This document shows positions 732 through 23,152 of a DNA stretch of 24,566 nucleotides, one piece after another. The stretch's first letter is position 1. Each line of letters opens with the position of its first letter. Below the pieces are notes generated by a model that was not told where the DNA came from, searched no databases, and saw only the letters and a list, made by a program, of their open reading frames with translations. The stretch spans positions 1 to 24,566 of the IMG/VR virus record IMGVR_UViG_3300020436_000093; one strand, 5' to 3'. Made by a program: the position numbers and the translations under genes. The stretch is from a virus.

Positions 732-1853
732 TTAAGGATTCGATGTTGATTCGTGGGTTATATCATTAAACCACCTCTCTATGTCTTTTTTTAAATCTTT
801 TAATTTTGATTTTCTACTAATAAAATTATTGTAATTGTGTTCTAATATATCTAAATTATCTAACACCAACTTTTTTAAATTTTTTGTTCTTAGTTCTTTT
901 ACTAATTCTACAACAGCATTTATTCTATCGTCAAAGTTGTAAATATTATCATATGACTCATCCCATAAATTATTAAATGTTTTATATCCTTGCTGTTTTA
1001 AAACTTTTAATGAGTATTGTGTTCCTACTAAAATAAATGGCATTTTTAACATTATTGCTTTATAAGTTTTTTCAGTTATGTTAATACCATTATTAGTATT
1101 ATCAATACTGTGACAAGCACTTTCTGTTACAATATTAATACAGTTTTCTCTTGACCAATATGATAAGTCATTGTCTTTAGATGCAAACCCATTATCAATT
1201 CTTTGTTTAAATTTTACATCATAGACTAAATCATAAACTCCATTATTAATACTAGCATTAAAATCCTCTATCATTGGCATTACCTTATACATAAACATAC
1301 TTTTAGATTTTGCAATAGTATTTGAATGTGATCTATTAAGACATAAAAATTTTTTAGGATTATCATCTAATACTTTTACTATTTCTGGTTGATCATGATT
1401 TTGTACATACTTTTCAAATATATCCCAATGGTAAGTTTTAATAACATTACTTTTATATGGTTCACATAAAATATTGTACTTTGAGGTAAGTATTTTACAT
1501 TTATTAGGTTTTATCCCAGCTTCCTTTAATAAAAGAGGATATGTATCAATCCAATTACCACCTGATAAATCAATTTCAGAATCATTAATTATATAAAAAC
1601 ATTTATCATTATTAATATCATCTTTTACTTTATCTGGTAATAATTTAAATTCATTGTTTTTTATAATATCATGACTATACTTTCTTACATTATCATAGTA
1701 AATATATTTTCCTTTAACTTTATCTAAAGTTGTTACAGGATAACCTAATTCTTTATGTAAAGGAATCCAATGGTCGCTTACATCACTAAAAAGTCTGTTT
1801 TCTTTTTTTGAATAAAAATTACGTAAAGATTTATTTTTGAATGCTATAATCAT
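732..1853 (-). CDS. Putative glycosyltransferase-like phage protein (373 aa)
   Basis: The C-terminal third carries ITEKTYKAIMLKMPFILVG, then SLKVLKQQGYKTF and LWDESYDNI. This EKTYK...PFI.VG...GYKTF...DESYD signature is common in marine phage proteins found among glycosyltransferase genes and resembles the nucleotide-sugar-binding half of GT10/exostosin-like enzymes. The N-terminal two-thirds are not recognised. The ATG at 1853 overlaps the SGNH-like gene by 23 bases, so it is the last gene of the accessory cassette. No signal peptide or membrane segment is visible. The likely role is sugar transfer or sugar binding in glycan modification. The family assignment rests on motif memory, not on a search. 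Confidence 0.5.
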   Translation of the reverse strand: MIIAFKNKSLRNFYSKKENRLFSDVSDHWIPLHKELGYPVTTLDKVKGKYIYYDNVRKYSHDIIKNNEFKLLPDKVKDDINNDKCFYIINDSEIDLSGGNWIDTYPLLLKEAGIKPNKCKILTSKYNILCEPYKSNVIKTYHWDIFEKYVQNHDQPEIVKVLDDNPKKFLCLNRSHSNTIAKSKSMFMYKVMPMIEDFNASINNGVYDLVYDVKFKQRIDNGFASKDNDLSYWSRENCINIVTESACHSIDNTNNGINITEKTYKAIMLKMPFILVGTQYSLKVLKQQGYKTFNNLWDESYDNIYNFDDRINAVVELVKELRTKNLKKLVLDNLDILEHNYNNFISRKSKLKDLKKDIERWFNDITHESTSNP

Positions 1854-2628
1854 AAAGTTCTTTTGCTATCAACCTGTGTGCCTTTTCATTAGGGTGAGTA
1901 TCTTTGAATGATACTTTATAACCTGTTTCACCCATTGCTCTTTTTAAGAAACTTAAAACATTAAATCCACCAATCTCTGGTACTATAGGCCATCCCCAAA
2001 AATTACTCTCTTTAATTAAATTGCTAGTATTATGTTCTATTAATTTTATTGCAATTGCATTATCTCTTTCATGATTATCATTTGTAAAATGAAATGCTGG
2101 TATTGGTTTGATCGCTTGTGCAAATGTATATGGTATGTTAAGATTTTCACATATAGATTGCATTGAATATATGTAATTTAAATTAGTATCTATAAGATTA
2201 TCTAATTTTGGGTATGCGTGTTTGAAAGACCTTTTATACCATAATTGTGTTTTGTCATATTCATCATTCTCAGCTCTAGGTACCATGGTTTCAAATCTTT
2301 TTGTTATTTTTGTTTTACTGCCATTTGCTTGAGTTATATCATACGAGTAATCGTTAATTAAAAAATCTTGCCTTGCCCATTCTGACCACATTACATATAT
2401 GTGTTTTATATTGTCTTTGTGTTTTATGATTGCATCTAAAGTTTCATGATAGATTGCCATATTACCAAATCCACATTTAGCAGTATTGATAACTTCACAA
2501 CCATATAGTTCACCTATAATCTCTGGCCACATTTTAAAGTTTAAAGGTTTTGGTTTTGCCCTACTAGGATAGTTTTTATCTGTAAAACTACAACCACCTA
2601 CTATTATTTTATCGGAATACTTTGACAT
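1831..2628 (-). CDS. SGNH/GDSL hydrolase-like protein (265 aa)
   Basis: The N-terminus reads KIIVGGCSFT, placing a serine (Ser14) in a GDS-like block I context. AKCGFGN (residues 50-56) fits the Gly and Asn oxyanion-hole blocks. Near the C-terminus KDTHPNEKAH (Asp243, His245) fits the catalytic Asp-His block in its phage DxHP form. SGNH enzymes remove or transfer acyl groups, often on glycans. I place the start at the ATG at 2628, preceded by GAAAAGAAA; an in-frame ATG at 2655 has no ribosome-binding site. The gene overlaps the carbamoyltransferase by 20 bases and the glycosyltransferase-like gene by 23. A cytosolic O-acetyl esterase or transferase acting on the cassette product is plausible. 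Confidence 0.6.
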   Translation of the reverse strand: MSKYSDKIIVGGCSFTDKNYPSRAKPKPLNFKMWPEIIGELYGCEVINTAKCGFGNMAIYHETLDAIIKHKDNIKHIYVMWSEWARQDFLINDYSYDITQANGSKTKITKRFETMVPRAENDEYDKTQLWYKRSFKHAYPKLDNLIDTNLNYIYSMQSICENLNIPYTFAQAIKPIPAFHFTNDNHERDNAIAIKLIEHNTSNLIKESNFWGWPIVPEIGGFNVLSFLKRAMGETGYKVSFKDTHPNEKAHRLIAKELYDYSIQK

Positions 2629-3940
2629 TATATTTCTTTTCAAAATTTTCTGCATGAGTAATATTATTAACCATAGGTTTTCCTCTTATGTTTAAAGATG
2701 TATTCAATAACATTGGACAACCTGTTTGACTATACCACTCTTCTAGTATAGGTCTTAATATACTTATATTATCTTTCTCAACACATTGAACTCTAGCGGT
2801 ACCATCAACGTGTGTGACTGATTTATAATCGTGTCTTGCTTTAGATACAAACTGCATATACTTATTCTTTCTACCAACAAAGTAATCATCAAAATGTTCT
2901 TCCAATATTGCTGGTGCGAAAGGTCTAAACTTTTGTCTTTGTTTAACTTCATTTACTGTATCTTTAATATCTAGTCTAGGGTCTGCTAATAAACTTCTAT
3001 TACCTAATGCTCTTGGTCCAAACTCTGCTCTTCCATTTGCAACACCACAAAGTTTATGTTCTAGTAAATGTTTTACAATTTCTTTAGGGTTTAATTCTTT
3101 TATTATATTGTGACCCAAATATGGGTGTCGCCATCTTATTTTTTTCTTTTCTATCAAAGCAGCTGCACCTAGACTTGAACCTGCATCACCAGGTGATGGC
3201 ATAATCCAAACATTAAAACGATTTGGTATCTTACTATTTGCAACACAATTTAAAGCACAACCACCCATGATTACTATGTTACTATAGTCACAATATTTTA
3301 ATAATTCTAAAAACTTTGTTTCATATAAATTTTGGACACTAGCTGCTAAATCATTAGGGTGTGCTCGTGGAAATATCTTACCAACACCTCTATGATTATT
3401 TTTATGTAATAGATATTCTAAATCATATTTTGGTTCTCCAAATGCAGCCATGCCCATTGTGATATATTCATCTTCGTTTGGTTTTAATCCTATTCTTCTT
3501 GTAATTGCTGAATACAATAATCCTAGTGAATATGGATAGTTCCATGTTTTTAATTTTGTTAACTTATCATCTTTACCTTCCCATATTGATATTGTATTCC
3601 ATTCACCTATTGCGTCTATGACCAAAACATTACATTCGTTAAATGGTGAAGTATAATAACCTGCAGCTGCATGAGTTTCATGATGACCAAAGTAATAATC
3701 ATATTTTCTATCAGGCCATTTCATTCTTTGACCTGCAAACAATCTTCTTGTATTTTTTAAAAATGGTTTCTCATAAAACGCAGTATTATCATAATGTAAA
3801 GGTAAAAGGTTAGGATTAAAGTTAGGGTCTCCTTTGATTTTTGAGTATCTTTCACAATGATTAGCATAAAGTATTTCTCTTCCATTTAATACTGAAATGG
3901 CCGCATCGTGAAACCCTGCTGATACTCCTACATTAATCAT
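2609..3940 (-). CDS. O-carbamoyltransferase, NodU/CmcH/TobZ family (443 aa)
   Basis: Family motifs appear in order: GVSAGFHDAA (5-14), HHETHAAAGYYTSPF (86-100) with the metal-binding histidines, LVIDAIGEW (106-114), GMAAFGEPKY (163-172), GGCALNCVAN (226-235), PSPGDAGSSLGAA (248-260), GRAEFGPRALGNRS (303-316) and FRPFAPAILEE (338-348). Near the C-terminus LLNTSLNIRGKPMV marks the Carbam_trans_C domain. Known members move a carbamoyl group from carbamoyl phosphate through carbamoyl-AMP onto a hydroxyl of a sugar, antibiotic or modified base. It is shorter than NodU or TobZ (about 550-570 residues), mainly in interdomain loops and the C-terminal end. The ATG at 3940 overlaps the upstream stop as ATGA. 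The substrate cannot be read from sequence. Confidence 0.88.
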   Translation of the reverse strand: MINVGVSAGFHDAAISVLNGREILYANHCERYSKIKGDPNFNPNLLPLHYDNTAFYEKPFLKNTRRLFAGQRMKWPDRKYDYYFGHHETHAAAGYYTSPFNECNVLVIDAIGEWNTISIWEGKDDKLTKLKTWNYPYSLGLLYSAITRRIGLKPNEDEYITMGMAAFGEPKYDLEYLLHKNNHRGVGKIFPRAHPNDLAASVQNLYETKFLELLKYCDYSNIVIMGGCALNCVANSKIPNRFNVWIMPSPGDAGSSLGAAALIEKKKIRWRHPYLGHNIIKELNPKEIVKHLLEHKLCGVANGRAEFGPRALGNRSLLADPRLDIKDTVNEVKQRQKFRPFAPAILEEHFDDYFVGRKNKYMQFVSKARHDYKSVTHVDGTARVQCVEKDNISILRPILEEWYSQTGCPMLLNTSLNIRGKPMVNNITHAENFEKKYNVKVFR

Positions 3941-4215
3941 TTGTTTACCTTACAATTAAACTGACATATATCTATTGGGTCTTCAAAACTTTTTGGTAAA
4001 TCTTTTTGAAACCAATCTTTGTGTGTAATATTTTTTATACTATCATTTTCTAAATTATATCTATCTTTGTTATCATGATACTTTGTCAATAGTTGATGTT
4101 CTGCTTTATTTGGTTTACCATATTGATCACTAGCAAGATAACAACAAGGCCAAACTTGACCATCTGGGTTTATCATAGTTTTAGTTGTGCCTTCCAAAAA
4201 TTTACACTTTATCAT
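3937..4215 (-). CDS. SPASM/twitch-like Fe-S domain as a separate 92-aa ORF
   Basis: This small protein contains INPDGQVWPCCYLA (residues 15-28) and ICQFNCK (83-89), with cysteines 4, 24, 25, 84 and 88. NPxGxVxPCC followed by a late CxxxC is the pattern of the auxiliary iron-sulfur (SPASM or twitch) domain normally fused to the C-terminus of radical SAM enzymes. The radical SAM core is the gene immediately upstream, in a different frame, overlapping by 14 bases. The two therefore look like one enzyme split between ORFs, by an old frameshift, a programmed frameshift or a true two-subunit arrangement. Its TGA overlaps the carbamoyltransferase start as ATGA. Confidence 0.65.
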   Translation of the reverse strand: MIKCKFLEGTTKTMINPDGQVWPCCYLASDQYGKPNKAEHQLLTKYHDNKDRYNLENDSIKNITHKDWFQKDLPKSFEDPIDICQFNCKVNK

Positions 4216-4948
4216 CTGCAGCCTCTAGATATTCCTCTTCACCCTTTTCATTAATAAAATAAAATCTATTAGATTTATTATGATTAAATATATGAGTAGG
4301 ATTTGAATTAGGGATAGAATTTTCAAATCTATCACTAGGGTAAAACTCATGATTTTCTGAACCATATTTTTTTACTAAATCTAATATATCTTTTTTATAT
4401 TCTTGATTATGTTTAAATAATATTGTTTGAGATAATGCTTTTCCTTTAGTTTGTGAAAACACGTACATATGATCTAAAGATTTTTTTAATGATGTACCTC
4501 TTCTATACTTTTGATGCATTTCCTCTGTGGTGCCATCTATGTCAAATACAATAGTAAGTCTTTTGCCACAATAAACACCTAAGTTCCAATAAAACTCTTC
4601 ATTACGTAAACTACCATTTGTTGTTATTAGCACGTTTGCTTTTGAATTATCAATAATATAATGACATATTTTTTCTATATCTTTAGCCATCATTGAGTCT
4701 CCCCAAGTGCTAGTAAACCCATACTCTTCTATATCATCTAAAGTTTCTTTTGGAAAATATTTTATAAATTTTTCTACTGGCCACGATATGATCGGTAACC
4801 AATCAACAGCACCTAAACCATTTGGGTCAGTTCTATCGCATTGAGGACATCTAGCATTACAACGATTAGTTATTGCAATATCAATTCTTTTTGATAAACT
4901 GTAACCTAAGTCTATCATCTCTTGAGGATGTTGTAAAAAGTTTGGCAT
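4202..4948 (-). CDS. Radical SAM enzyme core (248 aa)
   Basis: ITNRCNARCPQCDR places the CX3CX2C cluster at Cys30, Cys34 and Cys37, which would bind the [4Fe-4S] cluster that cleaves S-adenosylmethionine. Downstream FTSTWGDSMM stands where the family usually has a G.GEP motif, and VLITTNGSLRNEE and IVFDIDGTTEEMHQKYR fit the strands and the DG...H.Y.R signature typical of SPASM-type radical SAM proteins. The protein ends just after the core, and the expected auxiliary cluster domain is encoded separately downstream. I chose the ATG at 4948, which overlaps the preceding small ORF stop as TGATG; a GTG at 4951 directly precedes it. The reaction is unknown; peptide or sugar modification are both known for the family. 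Confidence 0.8.
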   Translation of the reverse strand: MPNFLQHPQEMIDLGYSLSKRIDIAITNRCNARCPQCDRTDPNGLGAVDWLPIISWPVEKFIKYFPKETLDDIEEYGFTSTWGDSMMAKDIEKICHYIIDNSKANVLITTNGSLRNEEFYWNLGVYCGKRLTIVFDIDGTTEEMHQKYRRGTSLKKSLDHMYVFSQTKGKALSQTILFKHNQEYKKDILDLVKKYGSENHEFYPSDRFENSIPNSNPTHIFNHNKSNRFYFINEKGEEEYLEAADDKV

Positions 4949-5085
4949 CACTCATCTTTGTTTATATCGATCTCGTCATTCTCATAAATGAAAACATCTT
5001 GATCTTTTTCTTTCTTTTTGAAATAAGATAAAAATGTTGACCAATACAATCTTAAATATAACTTCCATTGTTTCATTGTTCTCAT
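4948..5085 (-). CDS. 45-residue micro-ORF between gp46 and radical SAM
   Basis: Translation gives 45 residues: an aromatic and basic N-terminal half (W7, Y10, Y14, W15, F18, Y21, F22), a lysine cluster at 23-27 and an acidic tail ending in NKDE. Support for coding is positional. The ATG overlaps the gp46 stop as TAATG, AAGGA lies 7 bases upstream of the ATG, and the TGA overlaps the radical SAM ATG as TGATG. The frame therefore fills the gap between its neighbours exactly. I recognise no family. It could be a small partner protein of the radical SAM enzyme or an unrelated phage peptide. Confidence 0.65.
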   Translation of the reverse strand: MRTMKQWKLYLRLYWSTFLSYFKKKEKDQDVFIYENDEIDINKDE

Positions 5086-6791
5086 TATGCTATCCTTGAA
5101 AAGTTTTGTTGTTTAACAAATCTAATACTGTTTCTAAACTTATCTACTAATTGATCTCCTTTATGAGATATAACAAAAGTATTTTCATCGCCAAGTGTAT
5201 TTAATATTCTTAAAAACTCATCTGTTCCTTGACCATCTAAACTACTATCAAATATCTCGTCTAGTATAAGTAAGTTTGTGTTAGTACTATTTTTCATTTT
5301 TGCTATCGCTCTCCATGTAAAAAGTAGTGCTAAATCTATACGCATCTTTTCACCTTCACTAAACGAAGCATAGTTAAATGTGTCTCTAAATCTAGACTTA
5401 ATTGTTTCATTAAAGTTTTCATCTAGATTAAAGTTGACGTAAAAGTCCATTGACATTAGATACTTATTAATCAATTGATTCATGATAGGTAAATATTGTT
5501 TTATAATTTTAGTTTTGATACCAGTATCATTTAACATATCTCTTGCAGCCATGATGTAAGTCTTTTCATCTTTTAAGTTACTTCTTTGATGTTCTATTTT
5601 TTTACAGTCTGTTTTCATTTGATTTAGTTTATCAATATCTTTTTCAGATACAGAACCGCTTTCAAAGTTCTCTATGTCTTCTTTTAATTTTCTATTATAT
5701 TTTTGTAATTCAGATATCGAACTATACAATTCTGCTTGTCTTACTTCATTGTCTCTAATTTGTTTTGTTATACCAGTAATTTCTTCTAAACGTTTATTTA
5801 CTATTGTTAATTCCTCTTTTAGTTTAATCGCACCATCAAGTATTTCTTTTGTTTTAATCTCTCTGTCAGATATCATTTTCTCTTTGTGTGATTGTTGTAT
5901 ATCTTGTTCACATGTAGGACACGAATCATTGTTCTTAAAAAACTCCATATCTTTTGCTAGTTGTTTGTGTTTTTCTGTTAACGTAGCACGTATATTGTTA
6001 AGTTTAGATAATTTGTTCTCTGTATGTGTCTTATCATTGATTTCACCTGTCAGATCATCGCTAGCAGTCTCTAAAAGGGCTTTTTCTTTCTCTCTATCTG
6101 TTAGTATAGTTTGATTAGATTGAAATAAGTCTTGTTTCTCTTTTATGATTTTGTCTTTGTTCTTTTTCATATCATCAATATAGTTTGTTTGCATGGCGAT
6201 TTTTTCTACTGCCATTTCAAACTGATAATCCATATCTTTGATATCGTCTTGTATGTCTTTCAATTGATTTTTCAATACCATATTCATCAATGAGAATATT
6301 TTTATGTCAAGTATCTCTTCGACAACTTCTCTTCTATGAACTGCCTTTAGTTGCATAAAAGGTATGAATGTTGATGAACCTAATATAACAACTTGAGTAA
6401 ATGACCTAAAGTTTAATCTTAATACATTTTGTTCTAAATATTTTTGATAGTCTCTTTGATTAGCTTCTTGATTGATCATGATATCATCACACCATATTTC
6501 AAACTTGTTTGGTTTGATGCCTCTTACTATCTTCCACTCTTTAGTACCAATCTTAAACTCTACTTCAACAACTGTTTCTCTGTCGTTAATTGTATTGACT
6601 AATTGTGATTTACTAATTATCCTAAATGGTTTACCAAACAGACTAAAACATAATGCATCAAGTATTGTTGACTTACCTGCACCATTCTCACCTATTATCA
6701 AAGTTGTTTTTTGTCTATCTAATTCTATCTCTGTAAAATTATTACCTGTAGATAAAAAGTTTTTCCAACGTACTTTTGTAAAGTGTATCAT
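5085..6791 (-). CDS. 46: gp46, recombination endonuclease subunit (SbcC/Rad50-like ATPase)
   Basis: This is a 568-residue SMC/Rad50-type protein. Walker A GENGAGKS is at 34-41, a zinc-hook CPTC at 291-294 sits inside long charged coiled-coil segments (about 170-420), the ABC signature FSEGEKMR is at 477-484, Walker B LLILDEIFD at 507-515 and the switch histidine in ISHKGD at 543. In T4 gp46 pairs with gp47 to resect DNA ends for recombination-dependent replication and to degrade host DNA. The start is the ATG at 6791, overlapping the membrane-protein stop as ATGA; an in-frame TTG at 6806 is less likely. Length matches T4 gp46 (560). Unusually, two genes separate it from gp47. Confidence 0.95.
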   Translation of the reverse strand: MIHFTKVRWKNFLSTGNNFTEIELDRQKTTLIIGENGAGKSTILDALCFSLFGKPFRIISKSQLVNTINDRETVVEVEFKIGTKEWKIVRGIKPNKFEIWCDDIMINQEANQRDYQKYLEQNVLRLNFRSFTQVVILGSSTFIPFMQLKAVHRREVVEEILDIKIFSLMNMVLKNQLKDIQDDIKDMDYQFEMAVEKIAMQTNYIDDMKKNKDKIIKEKQDLFQSNQTILTDREKEKALLETASDDLTGEINDKTHTENKLSKLNNIRATLTEKHKQLAKDMEFFKNNDSCPTCEQDIQQSHKEKMISDREIKTKEILDGAIKLKEELTIVNKRLEEITGITKQIRDNEVRQAELYSSISELQKYNRKLKEDIENFESGSVSEKDIDKLNQMKTDCKKIEHQRSNLKDEKTYIMAARDMLNDTGIKTKIIKQYLPIMNQLINKYLMSMDFYVNFNLDENFNETIKSRFRDTFNYASFSEGEKMRIDLALLFTWRAIAKMKNSTNTNLLILDEIFDSSLDGQGTDEFLRILNTLGDENTFVISHKGDQLVDKFRNSIRFVKQQNFSRIA

Positions 6792-7033
6792 ACTAACCAA
6801 TTCCAAACTGCTCTAATTGATAAGAGCAAATACATACCTTCCATTAACGCTCTAGGTATGTCTTTATCTTTTATTGCAAATCTTATCCACATGCTACAAG
6901 ATATACATGCTATTGCCCAACCCATCCATTGAGTATCCACATCAGCATTAGATAAAACAAAACAACCAGTCATTGCTATTAGAAATCCTATCCAACGTCC
7001 AGCGTCTAATTTTTGATAGTATCTAATTTTCAT
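6788..7033 (-). CDS. Small membrane protein, three predicted transmembrane helices (81 aa)
   Basis: Three hydrophobic stretches are visible: about residues 13-29 (RWIGFLIAMTGCFVLSN), 34-52 (including MGWAIACISCSMWIRF) and 62-80 (ALMEGMYLLLSIRAVWNWLV). The loops are short and charged (KDKDIPR). It overlaps the MT-A70 gene and gp46 by ATGA on both sides, so it is co-translated with them. I do not recognise the family; small multi-helix proteins of this kind occur in marine T4-like phages without assigned function. Confidence 0.7.
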   Translation of the reverse strand: MKIRYYQKLDAGRWIGFLIAMTGCFVLSNADVDTQWMGWAIACISCSMWIRFAIKDKDIPRALMEGMYLLLSIRAVWNWLV

Positions 7034-7569
7034 AATTCATTACCCCAACTATCCCAACCTTTTCGTTCTCTTCGAGCAAAAAGTTCAACGTAAGGACCTT
7101 CTAATAGTTGTTCTATTCTATCATATACTTCATCTGGTTTTCTACTATGTTCTTGTCTTGGTGCCACTATCAATTGTCTAACTGCTTTAGATAACCTTTT
7201 AGGTTTTCCTTTTGTTGCAAGTAAGCACATCTCTGGGTTTGCTCTAGTCCAATAACCTAACCCCGTAAACATTCCCATATTTTTTTTATTTTGTTTTGCC
7301 CAAGTAAAGCCAACTGTTTTGTACGTGAAACCCCAAGACTTAATAACTCTGAGCGCCTCTGGTAACATTGGGTCAACGCACCACATAAGTAAGACGCAAT
7401 CATCATCACAAATTGTCCTAACAGGTAAATTACAAATATCATCAACATGCATACAATTATAGTGCTGTGTAGCATTACGTCCGTCACCTTTAGGACTGTA
7501 GCTTTTAAAGTGCCATGGTGGGTCTGCATATATTACCTTATACTTAGAGTTCCAAGTCTTGAGCTTCAT
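7030..7569 (-). CDS. MT-A70-type N6-adenine DNA methyltransferase (179 aa)
   Basis: VIYADPPWHF carries the DPPW catalytic motif at residues 16-19, the MT-A70 version of the amino-methyltransferase DPPY. It is followed by the MT-A70 motifs LLMWCVDPMLPEAL, WGFTYKT.GFTWAK, GLGYWTRANPE.CLLATKG, HSRKPDEVYDRIE and YVELFARRERKGWDSWGNE, the last closing the SAM pocket. It probably methylates adenine in phage DNA and may protect against host nucleases or mark it. The ATG at 7569 overlaps gp47 by 26 bases and has AGGA 7 bases upstream. There is no cognate restriction gene in view, so it is probably a solitary methyltransferase. The target sequence is unknown. Confidence 0.9.
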   Translation of the reverse strand: MKLKTWNSKYKVIYADPPWHFKSYSPKGDGRNATQHYNCMHVDDICNLPVRTICDDDCVLLMWCVDPMLPEALRVIKSWGFTYKTVGFTWAKQNKKNMGMFTGLGYWTRANPEMCLLATKGKPKRLSKAVRQLIVAPRQEHSRKPDEVYDRIEQLLEGPYVELFARRERKGWDSWGNEL

Positions 7570-10566: not shown

Positions 10567-11996
10567 ATGTTTAGTGTATCTACTTTGTATGTAAACTCCT
10601 CTTCATTGTATATATTTATTCGTTCTTGAAAATGCAATAGTGTAAAGTTTTTTTTATTGCCGTGTGATAAGTCGTCTGATATGTCGTATAATCTAACTGC
10701 GTCCTTTTGTTCAGACTTTCTTAGACCACGACCTATTGATTGTAAAACTTTTATACGAGATTTATATGGGCTTGCAAAAACAACATTGTGTAGATTACGA
10801 ATATTAATGCCTGTGGAAAATACTCCGTAAGAAGCAAGAATGAGAATGTTATCTTTTTTCTCAGCCAACGCTCTAATCTGTTCTCTCTCATTTGTTCCTA
10901 CTCCGCCATGTACAAAGTGAACTTCTTTGTCAAGGTCTTGCATCATATCATTTAAAACTTCGCCATGTTTCTCTACAAGTTGGTAAAGAACAAGTGTATT
11001 ACCTTTTAAATTTTTACAAAGATTGTAAATGAATTGATTACGTTTTTTGTTTTGCACCAGGAAGTTAATTTCATCGATATAATTAAAATCCTTACATTGC
11101 TTACTTATATCGGCTGGATGCTTTAGGACAATACAATCGATCGCCAACTTGGCAATTGTCTCAGCATCCATTAAAGCTTTAGTTGTTGTTACTTGTTCTA
11201 CTTCACCAAACAATCCCTCTAATACTAGTCTATGAGTTTGTGTTCCGTCTAGTGTGCCTGTAAAACCAAAACGATAAGGACAGTCTTCTAGTTTAGTCAT
11301 GATGCTTGTTAAAGATTTTGCTTTAAATAAATGTGCCTCATCACCTATCACACATTGAAATCTATCAAAGAATTTTTTACGTTCTTTATAGATTGATTGC
11401 CATGTGGATATTGTTATAGGTTTTTTGCTAGCCTTATCGTGGCCAGAATATATTTTATGAATATGCGAATCATCCCAACCATAAGATATAAAATCACTTG
11501 CCATTTGTTCTACTAAAGAAGTTGTTGGTACTATTATCAAAACATTAACACTTGATAATTGTAAGTATCTCACTATCGCATAAATTATCGCAGACTTACC
11601 AGACGCAGTAGGTGAGACAAATAATTTTCTTTTGTTTTCTAATGCTTTGATAAAAGAGTCATATTGATAATCATACAATTCAAATGGCATCTTTAGACTG
11701 TCAATAAATCCTTTGGCGTCATCGTCATTAATCCAACGCAAAACTTCGCCATCTGATATTGTAAACTCTATGCCATTTCTTTGACAAAACTGTTTGATGT
11801 ATGGCAACAATCCGACATAAATTAGACGAGTGTTTTTTGAAAATAATCTTATCTTACCATCCCACATCCTATTACGAACAGTCGGCATAAACTTTGCACC
11901 TGGCACTTCAAAAGTAAAGTAGTCAGATAACTCTTGGGCGATTGCGTCTGTTGTGTCTATATGTAAATAGACATCGTTCTTTTTATTAATTAACAT
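10563..11996 (-). CDS. uvsW: UvsW, superfamily 2 DNA/RNA helicase
   Basis: The helicase motifs run in order: Walker A SPTASGKS (128-135), TTSLVEQM (motif Ia), IGDEAHLF (217-224), FGFTGTLDG (motif III), NTLVLYQLVEKHG (IV), GVFSTGINI (V) and QSIGRGLRKS (VI). The length of 477 residues is near T4 UvsW (503). UvsW unwinds branched recombination intermediates and R-loops, switching T4 from origin-dependent to recombination-dependent replication. The N-terminal 110 residues correspond to the UvsW substrate-binding domain. The ATG at 11996 overlaps the methyltransferase stop by 7 bases. Confidence 0.95.
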   Translation of the reverse strand: MLINKKNDVYLHIDTTDAIAQELSDYFTFEVPGAKFMPTVRNRMWDGKIRLFSKNTRLIYVGLLPYIKQFCQRNGIEFTISDGEVLRWINDDDAKGFIDSLKMPFELYDYQYDSFIKALENKRKLFVSPTASGKSAIIYAIVRYLQLSSVNVLIIVPTTSLVEQMASDFISYGWDDSHIHKIYSGHDKASKKPITISTWQSIYKERKKFFDRFQCVIGDEAHLFKAKSLTSIMTKLEDCPYRFGFTGTLDGTQTHRLVLEGLFGEVEQVTTTKALMDAETIAKLAIDCIVLKHPADISKQCKDFNYIDEINFLVQNKKRNQFIYNLCKNLKGNTLVLYQLVEKHGEVLNDMMQDLDKEVHFVHGGVGTNEREQIRALAEKKDNILILASYGVFSTGINIRNLHNVVFASPYKSRIKVLQSIGRGLRKSEQKDAVRLYDISDDLSHGNKKNFTLLHFQERINIYNEEEFTYKVDTLNI

Positions 11997-12511
11997 TTTT
12001 GTAATATGACAAGATTGTTGACAGTTAATATTTTTCTTGCTTGTTTATATAAGTTAACCCAATCGTCCACAAACTTTGTAACATCCTCTGATAATTTGTA
12101 ATCGTGAAATATCGCATAACCATTTTCCTCTAGATTATCCCAATAATTCATCGTGTCTTTTCTAACACTTGTAAAACTATGTTCGCCATCAATAAGTAAT
12201 GTGCCAAACATTTTTTTTGTTGACCACTTATGTGAGTCCTCTTGAACATGCATAAATCTTTCTATATAAGACAATGGTAAATATTTCATAACGTCTTTTA
12301 ATTTAAATTTCATATCAATTGACACGACTTTTCTATCTGTATCTTTTGTTGCATCCAACAATATAACTGTAGAACCACCTTGACCTATTTCAAGGATATC
12401 GCCATAAGTTTTTGTTAATATGAAGTTATCGAGGAAAGTGTATTCCTCGTCACACATTTGTTTAATTGGATTAAACCATTCCAGCTTCGAATTTTCGCCA
12501 TTCAATCGCAT
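11990..12511 (-). CDS. Class I SAM-dependent methyltransferase (Methyltransf_24-like, 173 aa)
   Basis: DILEIGQGGST (38-48) is motif I. VVSIDMK (62-68) gives the acidic residue that binds the SAM ribose. LLIDGEHSFTSVRKD (105-119) and GYAIFHDYKL (131-140) match the D-G-x-H-x(Y/F)...V..D and (I/F)xHD pattern of the Methyltransf_24 group, which often methylates sugars or small molecules. It lies between uvsY and uvsW. The ATG at 12511 overlaps uvsY by 41 bases, with AGGGTGGG upstream. The substrate is unknown and a direct role in recombination is not evident. Confidence 0.75.
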   Translation of the reverse strand: MRLNGENSKLEWFNPIKQMCDEEYTFLDNFILTKTYGDILEIGQGGSTVILLDATKDTDRKVVSIDMKFKLKDVMKYLPLSYIERFMHVQEDSHKWSTKKMFGTLLIDGEHSFTSVRKDTMNYWDNLEENGYAIFHDYKLSEDVTKFVDDWVNLYKQARKILTVNNLVILQKC

Positions 12512-12899
12512 TTTTTATATCCCACCCTCTAGATTGAATTGACCTTTGAACACCTTCTAAAAATTTAACAGTTGTTTCTAGATACACTATTTTATTTTTT
12601 GCGTCAATAACTTCTTGGTCAGATTCAATATAAATGTTTAAATCTGTTTTTAAAACTTTTAAATCAAATGGTTTTGATGCATAAACTTTAGCATCTGATT
12701 TACCACCATAGTATTCCCATTTGTCTCGGTACATTTTTGTATATTCACCTTTTGCTTTCGCAAGCAAAAATTCAAAGTTAGTTTTGTAATCAAGATACTT
12801 TGCATACAGGTCTTGATTACGTAAACTTTCTGTATCTAAATGTTCTTTATCTACAGGTAAGTCTTTATATGTTTCTTTTTTTAAATCATCTAACGTCAT
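12471..12899 (-). CDS. uvsY: UvsY, recombination mediator
   Basis: The 142-residue protein matches T4 UvsY (137) in length, in its MTLDDLKKE start, in a central YTKMYRDKWEYYGGKSD segment parallel to the T4 ARLDYYSGRGD segment, and in its C-terminus IQSRGWDIKNAIEWRKFEAG (T4 ends IKSRGFAIKHIQDMRAFEAG). UvsY loads the UvsX recombinase onto ssDNA coated with gp32. uvsX and gene 32 are not in this window. The gene overlaps its upstream neighbour by 14 bases. Confidence 0.92.
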   Translation of the reverse strand: MTLDDLKKETYKDLPVDKEHLDTESLRNQDLYAKYLDYKTNFEFLLAKAKGEYTKMYRDKWEYYGGKSDAKVYASKPFDLKVLKTDLNIYIESDQEVIDAKNKIVYLETTVKFLEGVQRSIQSRGWDIKNAIEWRKFEAGMV

Positions 12900-13503
12900 T
12901 TGATATTTTTTGTATAACAGGTACTATTCTATTATTCACTTTCATTGTTTTTCTATTAATAGGAAAAACTTCGTTTATTGGTTCCACAAAATCAAAACTG
13001 TAAACACAACTATGTCTAGTTGCAAATTGCATTGGCATAACTTTGTCAAATTCCATACACCAATTCCAAAGTTCGATATGTCTATAATGATTGATTATAT
13101 AGATTTTTGGTGGATTTGTCAAGGAATAATCTAGGTTATACTCTGGCCCAACATTGTCCATAATGACATCATAAGGTTTATCAAATACAAGTGTCTCTGT
13201 GGCATCTTGTAATTTAAATTCATACTTACCCTTGTAAGAAAATAAATCTTTATACTTGTCTTGTAATGCTATTGAGTTATGCTGTCTATAATAGAAACTG
13301 TTGTCTATGTTTAAACATTCTTTAACGTTATTACCGTATTGTGCTATGAAAAAATCTAAATTAGGACCACCACCGATACACTTAACAGTCTCAACATTTT
13401 TAAATAGATTGTTAAGTATCTCGTATTGTTCTAATTCAAAATCCCAAAAGTTATTTTTATTATCTTTGTATAGATTATATATTTCTGTCCACTTGACATT
13501 CAC
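12886..13503 (-). CDS. Rossmann-fold, methyltransferase-like protein (205 aa)
   Basis: VKCIGGGPNLDFFIAQYG (40-57) resembles SAM-binding motif I. CLNIDNS (63-69) offers an acidic ribose-binding residue, LQDATETL (98-105) the usual D-(A/V) motif and YDVIMDNVGPEY (111-122) the strand-4 motif. The Gly-rich loop is atypical, so loss of activity or another ligand is possible. The start is GTG at 13503, with an in-frame stop just upstream and no clear Shine-Dalgarno. It is the first gene after the sigma70-like promoter and is coupled to uvsY by overlap. The function is unknown. Confidence 0.55.
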   Translation of the reverse strand: MNVKWTEIYNLYKDNKNNFWDFELEQYEILNNLFKNVETVKCIGGGPNLDFFIAQYGNNVKECLNIDNSFYYRQHNSIALQDKYKDLFSYKGKYEFKLQDATETLVFDKPYDVIMDNVGPEYNLDYSLTNPPKIYIINHYRHIELWNWCMEFDKVMPMQFATRHSCVYSFDFVEPINEVFPINRKTMKVNNRIVPVIQKISNDVR

Positions 13504-22852: not shown

Positions 22853-23152
22853 ATGCAATCCCACTATGAGAAATACAAAGAGACTATCAAGAAAGTTGCC
22901 CGAAGACACTATAATAAGAGGGTCTCTTGGTTAAATCAACACCTTTCTAACAAATCTTGTCAAAACTGTGGTGAGAGTGAAACTATATGTCTTAAATTCT
23001 ATCCTCATGACTCTCAAATACGTAAAATATCAAAAACAAATGGTATCAATGGTTCTGGTAGACAAGAGATACTAAATTTAATCGATAGTTCAAAAATAAT
23101 ATGTCATAATTGTTGGATTAAATTAGATAATGATCTAATCGAGCTTATCTAA
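22853..23152 (+). CDS. Zinc-binding, HNH-endonuclease-like protein (99 aa)
   Basis: Two cysteine pairs, CQNC (36-39) and CHNC (84-87), frame LKFYPHDSQIRKIS and GSGRQEILNLIDSSKIIC. This is the layout of small phage HNH proteins (CxxC...LxFHHxxPxxK...S...EIxKCxLLCxNCHxxxH). Here the first histidine is shifted (FYPHD) and the final His after the second CxxC is absent (CWIKLDND), so nuclease activity is doubtful. The N-terminal 35 residues are basic and helical. It is the only plus-strand gene and lies between terminase and sheath, a place that suits a homing-type insertion. Its 3' end overlaps the converging gene by 18 bases. A pure zinc-ribbon DNA-binding protein is the alternative. Confidence 0.65.
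   Translation: MQSHYEKYKETIKKVARRHYNKRVSWLNQHLSNKSCQNCGESETICLKFYPHDSQIRKISKTNGINGSGRQEILNLIDSSKIICHNCWIKLDNDLIELI

Follow-up and report, generated by a model that had tools for sequence, protein, structure and literature searches.

The window analysed here is the complete 24,566-base IMG/VR virus record IMGVR_UViG_3300020436_000093, and represents a T4-like phage whose nearest cultured relatives by major capsid protein (gp23, 69-73% identity) infect Methylophilales and Pelagibacter. Behind gp46 it carries a cassette encoding a 45-residue microprotein, a radical SAM core protein, a stand-alone SPASM/twitch-type iron-sulfur domain protein, an O-carbamoyltransferase (CT) of the NodU/CmcH/TobZ family, an SGNH-fold hydrolase and a GT-B-like glycosyltransferase (GT). 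We find that the CT, the SGNH protein and the microprotein form the core of a module that moves between two genomic sites, and consider that the cassette most likely, at somewhat better than even chances, equips a surface glycan with a carbamoylated sugar. Phage CTs of this family tend to be catalogued as stray metabolic genes; their compact unit of three genes, one of them for a microprotein that had no annotation before, is a concrete system open to testing, in which the microprotein may recruit its partners, activate them or be modified by them.

Core module, microprotein and genomic sites

The CT family is widespread in marine phages: it occurs in 144 phage records, and a single query of IMG/VR returned 254 related stretches, of which the best 80 were kept and 45 non-redundant CTs (<90% identical) counted. 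SGNH is the next gene after the CT in 36 of these 45, and the exact order radical SAM-SPASM-CT-SGNH recurs in seven, with two or three more having an extra radical-SAM gene before the CT. Such repeated linkage in independent contigs is not a chance arrangement, and it supports the proposal of the first-pass annotation that the genes serve a dedicated pathway, as do their presence at two sites and the intactness of the active-site residues that could be tested. Neither scattered, unlinked genes in relatives nor a degraded CT site, either of which would have spoken against a pathway, was found. Loci L007-L011 have no radical-SAM/SPASM pair and retain the microprotein, CT and SGNH genes; we therefore take these three as the core and the rest as optional, the radical-SAM/SPASM pair and the GT-B-like glycosyltransferase being add-ons to the core module. 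A literature search on the CT-SGNH combination and on DUF6071 returned nothing useful.

The module lies behind gp46 in about 20 contigs (L006-L024, L076, L079, L090 and L091). At its second site (L026-L063) it is found downstream of large structural genes of VrlC-like or tail-fibre-like type, among them a 2159-aa protein of L027 that is homologous to VrlC of phage Mosig (39% over 556 aa) and has a DUF4815 domain, and a 1029-aa protein of L032 with a weak match to a tail-fibre family. The module thus moves between two genomic sites. The window cassette, sitting behind gp46, is outside the host-recognition-cluster position between VrlC and gp14, and its placement in the recombination operon says little on function because the module occupies at least one other site. 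Turnover within the cassette proceeds gene by gene, as can be seen from L006, a contig 93% identical to the window that has a further SGNH gene after the GT; the window misses exactly that piece, and the last ~11 codons of its GT gene are a deletion scar. Near the gp46 site we also noted DegT matches of ~200 aa that look marginal.

The microprotein, the most unusual part of the cassette, had been overlooked in the earlier five-gene description. When all retrieved loci were scanned for its motif, related small open reading frames (ORFs) of 35-82 aa appeared next to the CT, and on its strand, in dozens of contigs, with a basic N-terminus and a C-terminal FIYE or FIYD accompanied by acidic residues; Y34 and E35 are invariant in an alignment of 35 sequences. 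Under a strict rule (the motif, at least five Lys/Arg in the preceding 25 residues, ≤6 kb from the CT and same strand) the microprotein was recognized at 31 of the 45 viral CT loci. Four of the 14 misses are divergent forms (FIYD, HIYED, FIY) right after SGNH or adjoining it, and several others are contigs that end near the cassette. The same rule detected none in 1.3 Mb of cellular CT loci, and none was found in Mosig or C48C1.

Chance occurrence of the motif was considered and ruled out: only 2 of 135 shuffled CT regions matched the strict rule, and 857 kb of other viral loci held no genuine match, the sole one (L109) being the contig of CT locus L079. The microprotein is under purifying selection, with dN/dS mostly 0.06-0.4 and a pooled pN/pS of 0.29, values derived from sequence pairs that overlap and are not independent tests. 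IMG/VR was queried with two sub-alignments, the full 35-row alignment being too short and divergent. These scans gave 9 and 18 matches, fewer than 27 of them new as several were CT loci already found, and all matches lie on CT-bearing contigs or on contigs that end inside an SGNH gene directly upstream (L281, L290, L291). Neither PHROGs nor a set of 50,697 phage records yielded a significant match to the family. We infer that the microprotein is a real gene and an obligate partner of CT and SGNH in these viruses.

Sites and folds of the cassette proteins

The family calls of the first-pass annotation held for radical SAM, SPASM and CT, which were recovered by Pfam; the SGNH and glycosyltransferase proteins gave no significant match in Pfam and other family searches, and these two calls are backed instead by predicted structures. 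The CT possesses both the Kae1-like N domain and the YrdC-like C domain. It matches the structure chains of TobZ, GdmN and NovN, and was aligned to NovN, GdmN and 7xb6. HHxxHA, D109, D252, GPRALGNRS (R310), K333, RPFAP (R339) and NTS are invariant among 20 sequences (alignment A3), so that the metal and carbamoyl-adenylate site is intact in its motifs. Both domains and these motifs are common to TobZ, GdmN, NovN and NodU; window-type CTs differ in being compact (437-456 aa), in forming their own subfamily and in being paired with SGNH. In the CT tree, a clade of 29 with 100/100 support joins marine viral with cellular (actinomycete and marine-bacterial) enzymes. As a separate observation, the CT of cyanophage S-RIM44 (L099, 7370-9625) is annotated as a pair of adjacent ORFs that come immediately after ThyX.

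CxxxCxxC is kept in all 44 radical-SAM proteins and the five cysteines of the SPASM protein in all 31 sequences. The latter follow the auxiliary-cluster pattern CX9-15GX4C plus downstream cysteines (C4-x14-G19-x4-C24, then C25, C84 and C88), their number being the twitch-like one for a single cluster. Radical SAM and SPASM are encoded not as one polypeptide but as two separate overlapping genes in 36 locus pairs, and a fused form is found in the cellular locus L189. The split as an assembly frameshift was rejected because the overlaps vary from 4 to 52 nt and include both frame offsets. It amounts to a natural experiment in which a radical enzyme is separated from its auxiliary cluster domain. 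In L092-L097 a split pair follows a 420-aa gene and no CT is present.

The AlphaFold2 model of the SGNH protein has a mean predicted local distance difference test (pLDDT) of 91.5, and Foldseek matches it to TesA, acetyl xylan esterase, carbohydrate esterases, ChoE and CgnD, the last having the highest query-normalised template modelling (TM) score (0.51) among the matches listed. The protein is thus predicted to adopt the SGNH fold. Its catalytic residues are well conserved (S23 in 53 of 53 sequences, H254 in 52 and D252 in 44), giving a block I serine and a DxxH-type block V; the canonical block III GxND is replaced by W90-S/T91-E92-xx-R95. The GT model is of medium confidence (pLDDT 74.8), with SdgB, a GT10 fucosyltransferase, TarM, T4 BGT and EXT as top PDB matches, mostly of GT-B type at TM 0.3-0.4. 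The GT-B-like gene is widespread in viral contigs; single-protein scans with the SGNH or GT sequence recovered the sister contig only.

Predicted product of the cassette

The carbamoylated surface glycan that we favour corresponds to one of two hypotheses raised earlier, decoration of a surface glycan or virion glycoprotein. It is suggested by the GT-B-like gene, by the site in the tail-fibre and glycan island and by sugar genes near related CTs. A UDP-sugar dehydrogenase gene is next after the GT or SGNH gene in sister cassettes (L015-L024, L076 and L079), and its family, PF00984, is present in 9 of 48 CT records. Cellular CTs of the same subfamily are found beside GDSL/SGNH and GT4/GT2 genes in Geodermatophilus (L186), beside SGNH (DUF6071) and an epimerase in Nonomuraea (L190), and in L189 in a cluster with an aminotransferase, the fused radical-SAM/SPASM protein, SGNH and an epimerase. 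The cultured Pelagibacter phage Mosig (EXVC030M, L005) has an island ordered radical SAM-SPASM-SGNH-DegT aminotransferase-radical SAM-CT-methyltransferase-GT8. It resembles the window type in its radical SAM-SPASM-SGNH order and in having a CT in the same cassette, and differs in that its CT comes from another subfamily, the DegT aminotransferase and methyltransferases are interposed and no microprotein was found.

The general setting is already known, since radical-SAM cassettes and O-chain genes have been reported in pelagimyophages, the same phage group as the window by gp23. Their host recognition cluster is reported to contain GT8/lipopolysaccharide (LPS) genes, glycosyltransferases and radical-SAM cassettes (Zaragoza-Solas 2020, PMC7029224). 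The CT-SGNH modules of many of our contigs lie in this cluster, after VrlC and the tail fibres, in contrast to the window cassette behind gp46; neither the CT-SGNH-microprotein unit nor the split radical-SAM/SPASM was found described in the passages of that study consulted.

We propose that T4-like marine phages carry the cassette as a mobile set of sugar-tailoring genes, which would be co-expressed with the gp47-gp46 operon. Judged by its family and site, the CT would take carbamoyl phosphate as donor, form carbamoyl-AMP as intermediate and carbamoylate a sugar hydroxyl. The radical-SAM/SPASM pair may alter the sugar ring or a substituent, the SGNH enzyme may remove or move an acyl or carbamoyl ester, and the GT-B-like enzyme would attach the sugar to a glycan, with the host cell-surface O-chain as the likeliest acceptor and a virion glycan as the second, the steps following in an order that is likewise a prediction. 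The microprotein would most simply be an adaptor that joins the soluble enzymes or brings them to the membrane via its basic N-terminus, with FIYE as its putative docking motif. In an amphipathic-helix test the microprotein did not exceed shuffled sequences (mean z 0.34), so that only its charge and hydrophobicity speak for a membrane tether. If a glycan is indeed the target, O-carbamoylation could give phages of abundant ocean bacteria a chemical means of altering surface glycans, for instance to keep out rivals.

Several points weigh against a surface glycan. The GT assignment comes from a medium-confidence model with the low TM scores given above, no sugar-nucleotide gene was found in the window, and many CT-SGNH loci are without GT or dehydrogenase genes, as the nine records with PF00984 illustrate. 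The acceptor and product of the cassette are predictions from sequence that fit the host surface and the virion alike. Moreover, a small peptide beside radical-SAM, CT and SGNH-fold genes also fits a peptide pathway.

In such a pathway, resembling those for ribosomally synthesized and post-translationally modified peptides (RiPPs), the radical-SAM/SPASM pair and the CT would modify the FIYE (Tyr-Glu) region of the microprotein and the SGNH-fold hydrolase would release the product, potentially a bioactive peptide of phage origin or a membrane peptide carrying the modification. PqqA and mycofactocin precursors are likewise small Tyr-bearing peptides used by SPASM enzymes, and the linkage of an obligate small gene to CT and SGNH, its selection and the invariance of its Tyr and Glu agree with this idea, as does the place of CgnD among the SGNH structural matches. 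In crocagin biosynthesis, a small precursor gene (CgnA), a carbamoyltransferase (CgnI) and an esterase/SGNH-fold hydrolase (CgnD) that liberates the core occur together (PMC10070186), as in the cassette. Unlike the crocagin genes, the window has no visible CgnB/CgnE-type peptide-binding protein or CgnC, and has radical-SAM/SPASM and GT genes instead. We regard the peptide route as unlikely, and favour an adaptor over a substrate role because no microprotein was detected in the cellular loci of this CT subfamily, which do have SGNH, and because L007-L011 keep it without radical-SAM/SPASM. What is conserved in it is the C-terminal motif rather than a leader, neither an exporter nor a peptide-binding partner was evident, and the neighbouring genes are mostly of sugar type. 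Modification of virion proteins such as tail fibres, whether direct or by way of a glycan, is a rather doubtful function of the module. VrlC and tail-fibre-like genes precede CT-SGNH on its own strand in many contigs, and genes resembling Asp/Arg hydroxylases are nearby, but the window module is far from fibre genes, and the tail-fibre island also holds host-directed LPS genes (PMC7029224). Synthesis in the infected cell of an aminoglycoside- or guanidinium-alkaloid-like small molecule, unattached to a glycan, appears quite improbable. Some CTs, TobZ, GdmN and NovN among them, do act on antibiotics, and the actinomycete CT of L190 is near an adenylation enzyme and a pyridoxal phosphate-dependent decarboxylase; the viral cassettes, however, are short, variable and without a scaffold-building enzyme. 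By eye, amidinotransferase-like genes lie beside CT-SGNH in L090 (12873-14093) and L077 (11366-12466), the former with a 2-oxoglutarate oxygenase, but the amidinotransferase call is weak (PF02274, 0.0089, in L077 only and below cut-off).

The other hypothesis raised earlier was hypermodification of DNA, in which the CT would carbamoylate a hydroxymethylated base. One phage CT does carbamoylate 5-hydroxymethylcytosine (5hmC), and the window CT belongs to the same superfamily. The cassette also lies inside a DNA-metabolism operon, adjoining gp46, and T4 BGT is among the matches of its GT. The published signature of DNA-acting CTs is co-occurrence with a thymidylate synthase-family gene and PRA-PH, whereas CTs of unmodified contigs are found beside glycosyltransferases (eLife, PMC8670742). 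As stated by the first-pass annotation, the window has no hydroxymethylase (PF00303 count 0). The thymidylate synthase/dCMP hydroxymethylase family is present in 1 of 48 CT records, an absence that is weak evidence record by record because most viral records are fragments, and none was detected in the long reference phage records C48C1, HTVC008M and Mosig. In L082, a 146 kb record, a ThyA-like gene is ~60 kb from the CT. Acinetobacter phage HHU4 (L100, 7710-11623) carries the DNA-carbamoylation signature, a CT annotated as hypothetical near PF01503 (PRA-PH) and PF00303. The window CT is only 26% identical to the HHU4 CT, has no thymidylate synthase-family partner and belongs to the clade of 29 described above, from which HHU4, a long branch and the sole proxy for the DNA type, is excluded. 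The same CT module is also present in the tail-fibre island. We consequently find DNA hypermodification unsupported and very unlikely.

Cassette layout and other window features

Coordinates are given in Table 1. The first-pass annotation had placed five overlapping genes at 732-4951, all of which are confirmed on the minus strand, with successive overlaps of 14, 4, 47 and 23 nt (the third being 20 with an internal ATG). It had the chain start directly after gp46, a claim that does not stand, as 133 nt intervene between the end of gp46 and the radical-SAM gene. This interval is occupied by the 45-codon microprotein gene, which shares 1 nt with gp46 and 4 nt with the radical-SAM gene and thus makes a chain of six genes without a gap.

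Table 1. Cassette genes, flanking gene and junction in the window
Feature	Position	Strand	Evidence or characteristics
Microprotein, 45 aa, MRTMKQWKLYLRLYWSTFLSYFKKKEKDQDVFIYENDEIDINKDE	4948..5085	-	Basic hydrophobic N-terminus; C-terminal FIYE and acidic tail
Radical SAM core protein, 249 aa, CxxxCxxC (C31, C35, C38)	4202..4951	-	PF04055 2.7e-07
Stand-alone SPASM/twitch-type iron-sulfur domain protein, 92 aa (C4, C24, C25, C84, C88)	3937..4215	-	PF13186 1.2e-06
O-carbamoyltransferase (CT), NodU/CmcH/TobZ family, compact form, 443 aa	2609..3940	-	PF02543 2.2e-37 and PF16861 4.1e-47
SGNH-fold hydrolase/esterase-like protein, 274 aa (S23, D252, H254)	1831..2655	-	AlphaFold2 and Foldseek
GT-B-like glycosyltransferase, 373 aa	732..1853	-	AlphaFold2 model and PDB matches
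Junction at which the window lacks the second SGNH gene of L006 (706 bp)	764..765	.	Comparison with L006
gp46 (Rad50/SbcC-like), cassette directly behind	5085..6806	-	AAA_23 1.7e-13, SMC_N 2.2e-14

Between gp47 and gp46 (6788-7569), the window has an MT-A70 adenine methyltransferase gene and a gene for an 81-aa probable membrane protein; in relatives this slot holds other small genes, even SGNH (L010). A promoter-like TTGACA-N17-TAGATT with an extended TG is located at 605-633 on the minus strand, just past the cassette and ahead of the next gene. A Methyltransf_24 protein and two proteins of 142 and 205 aa without family matches are encoded between UvsW and the capsid genes (11990-13503), and a lone plus-strand ORF between the sheath and terminase genes (22853-23152) has CxxC pairs and an HNH-like look.

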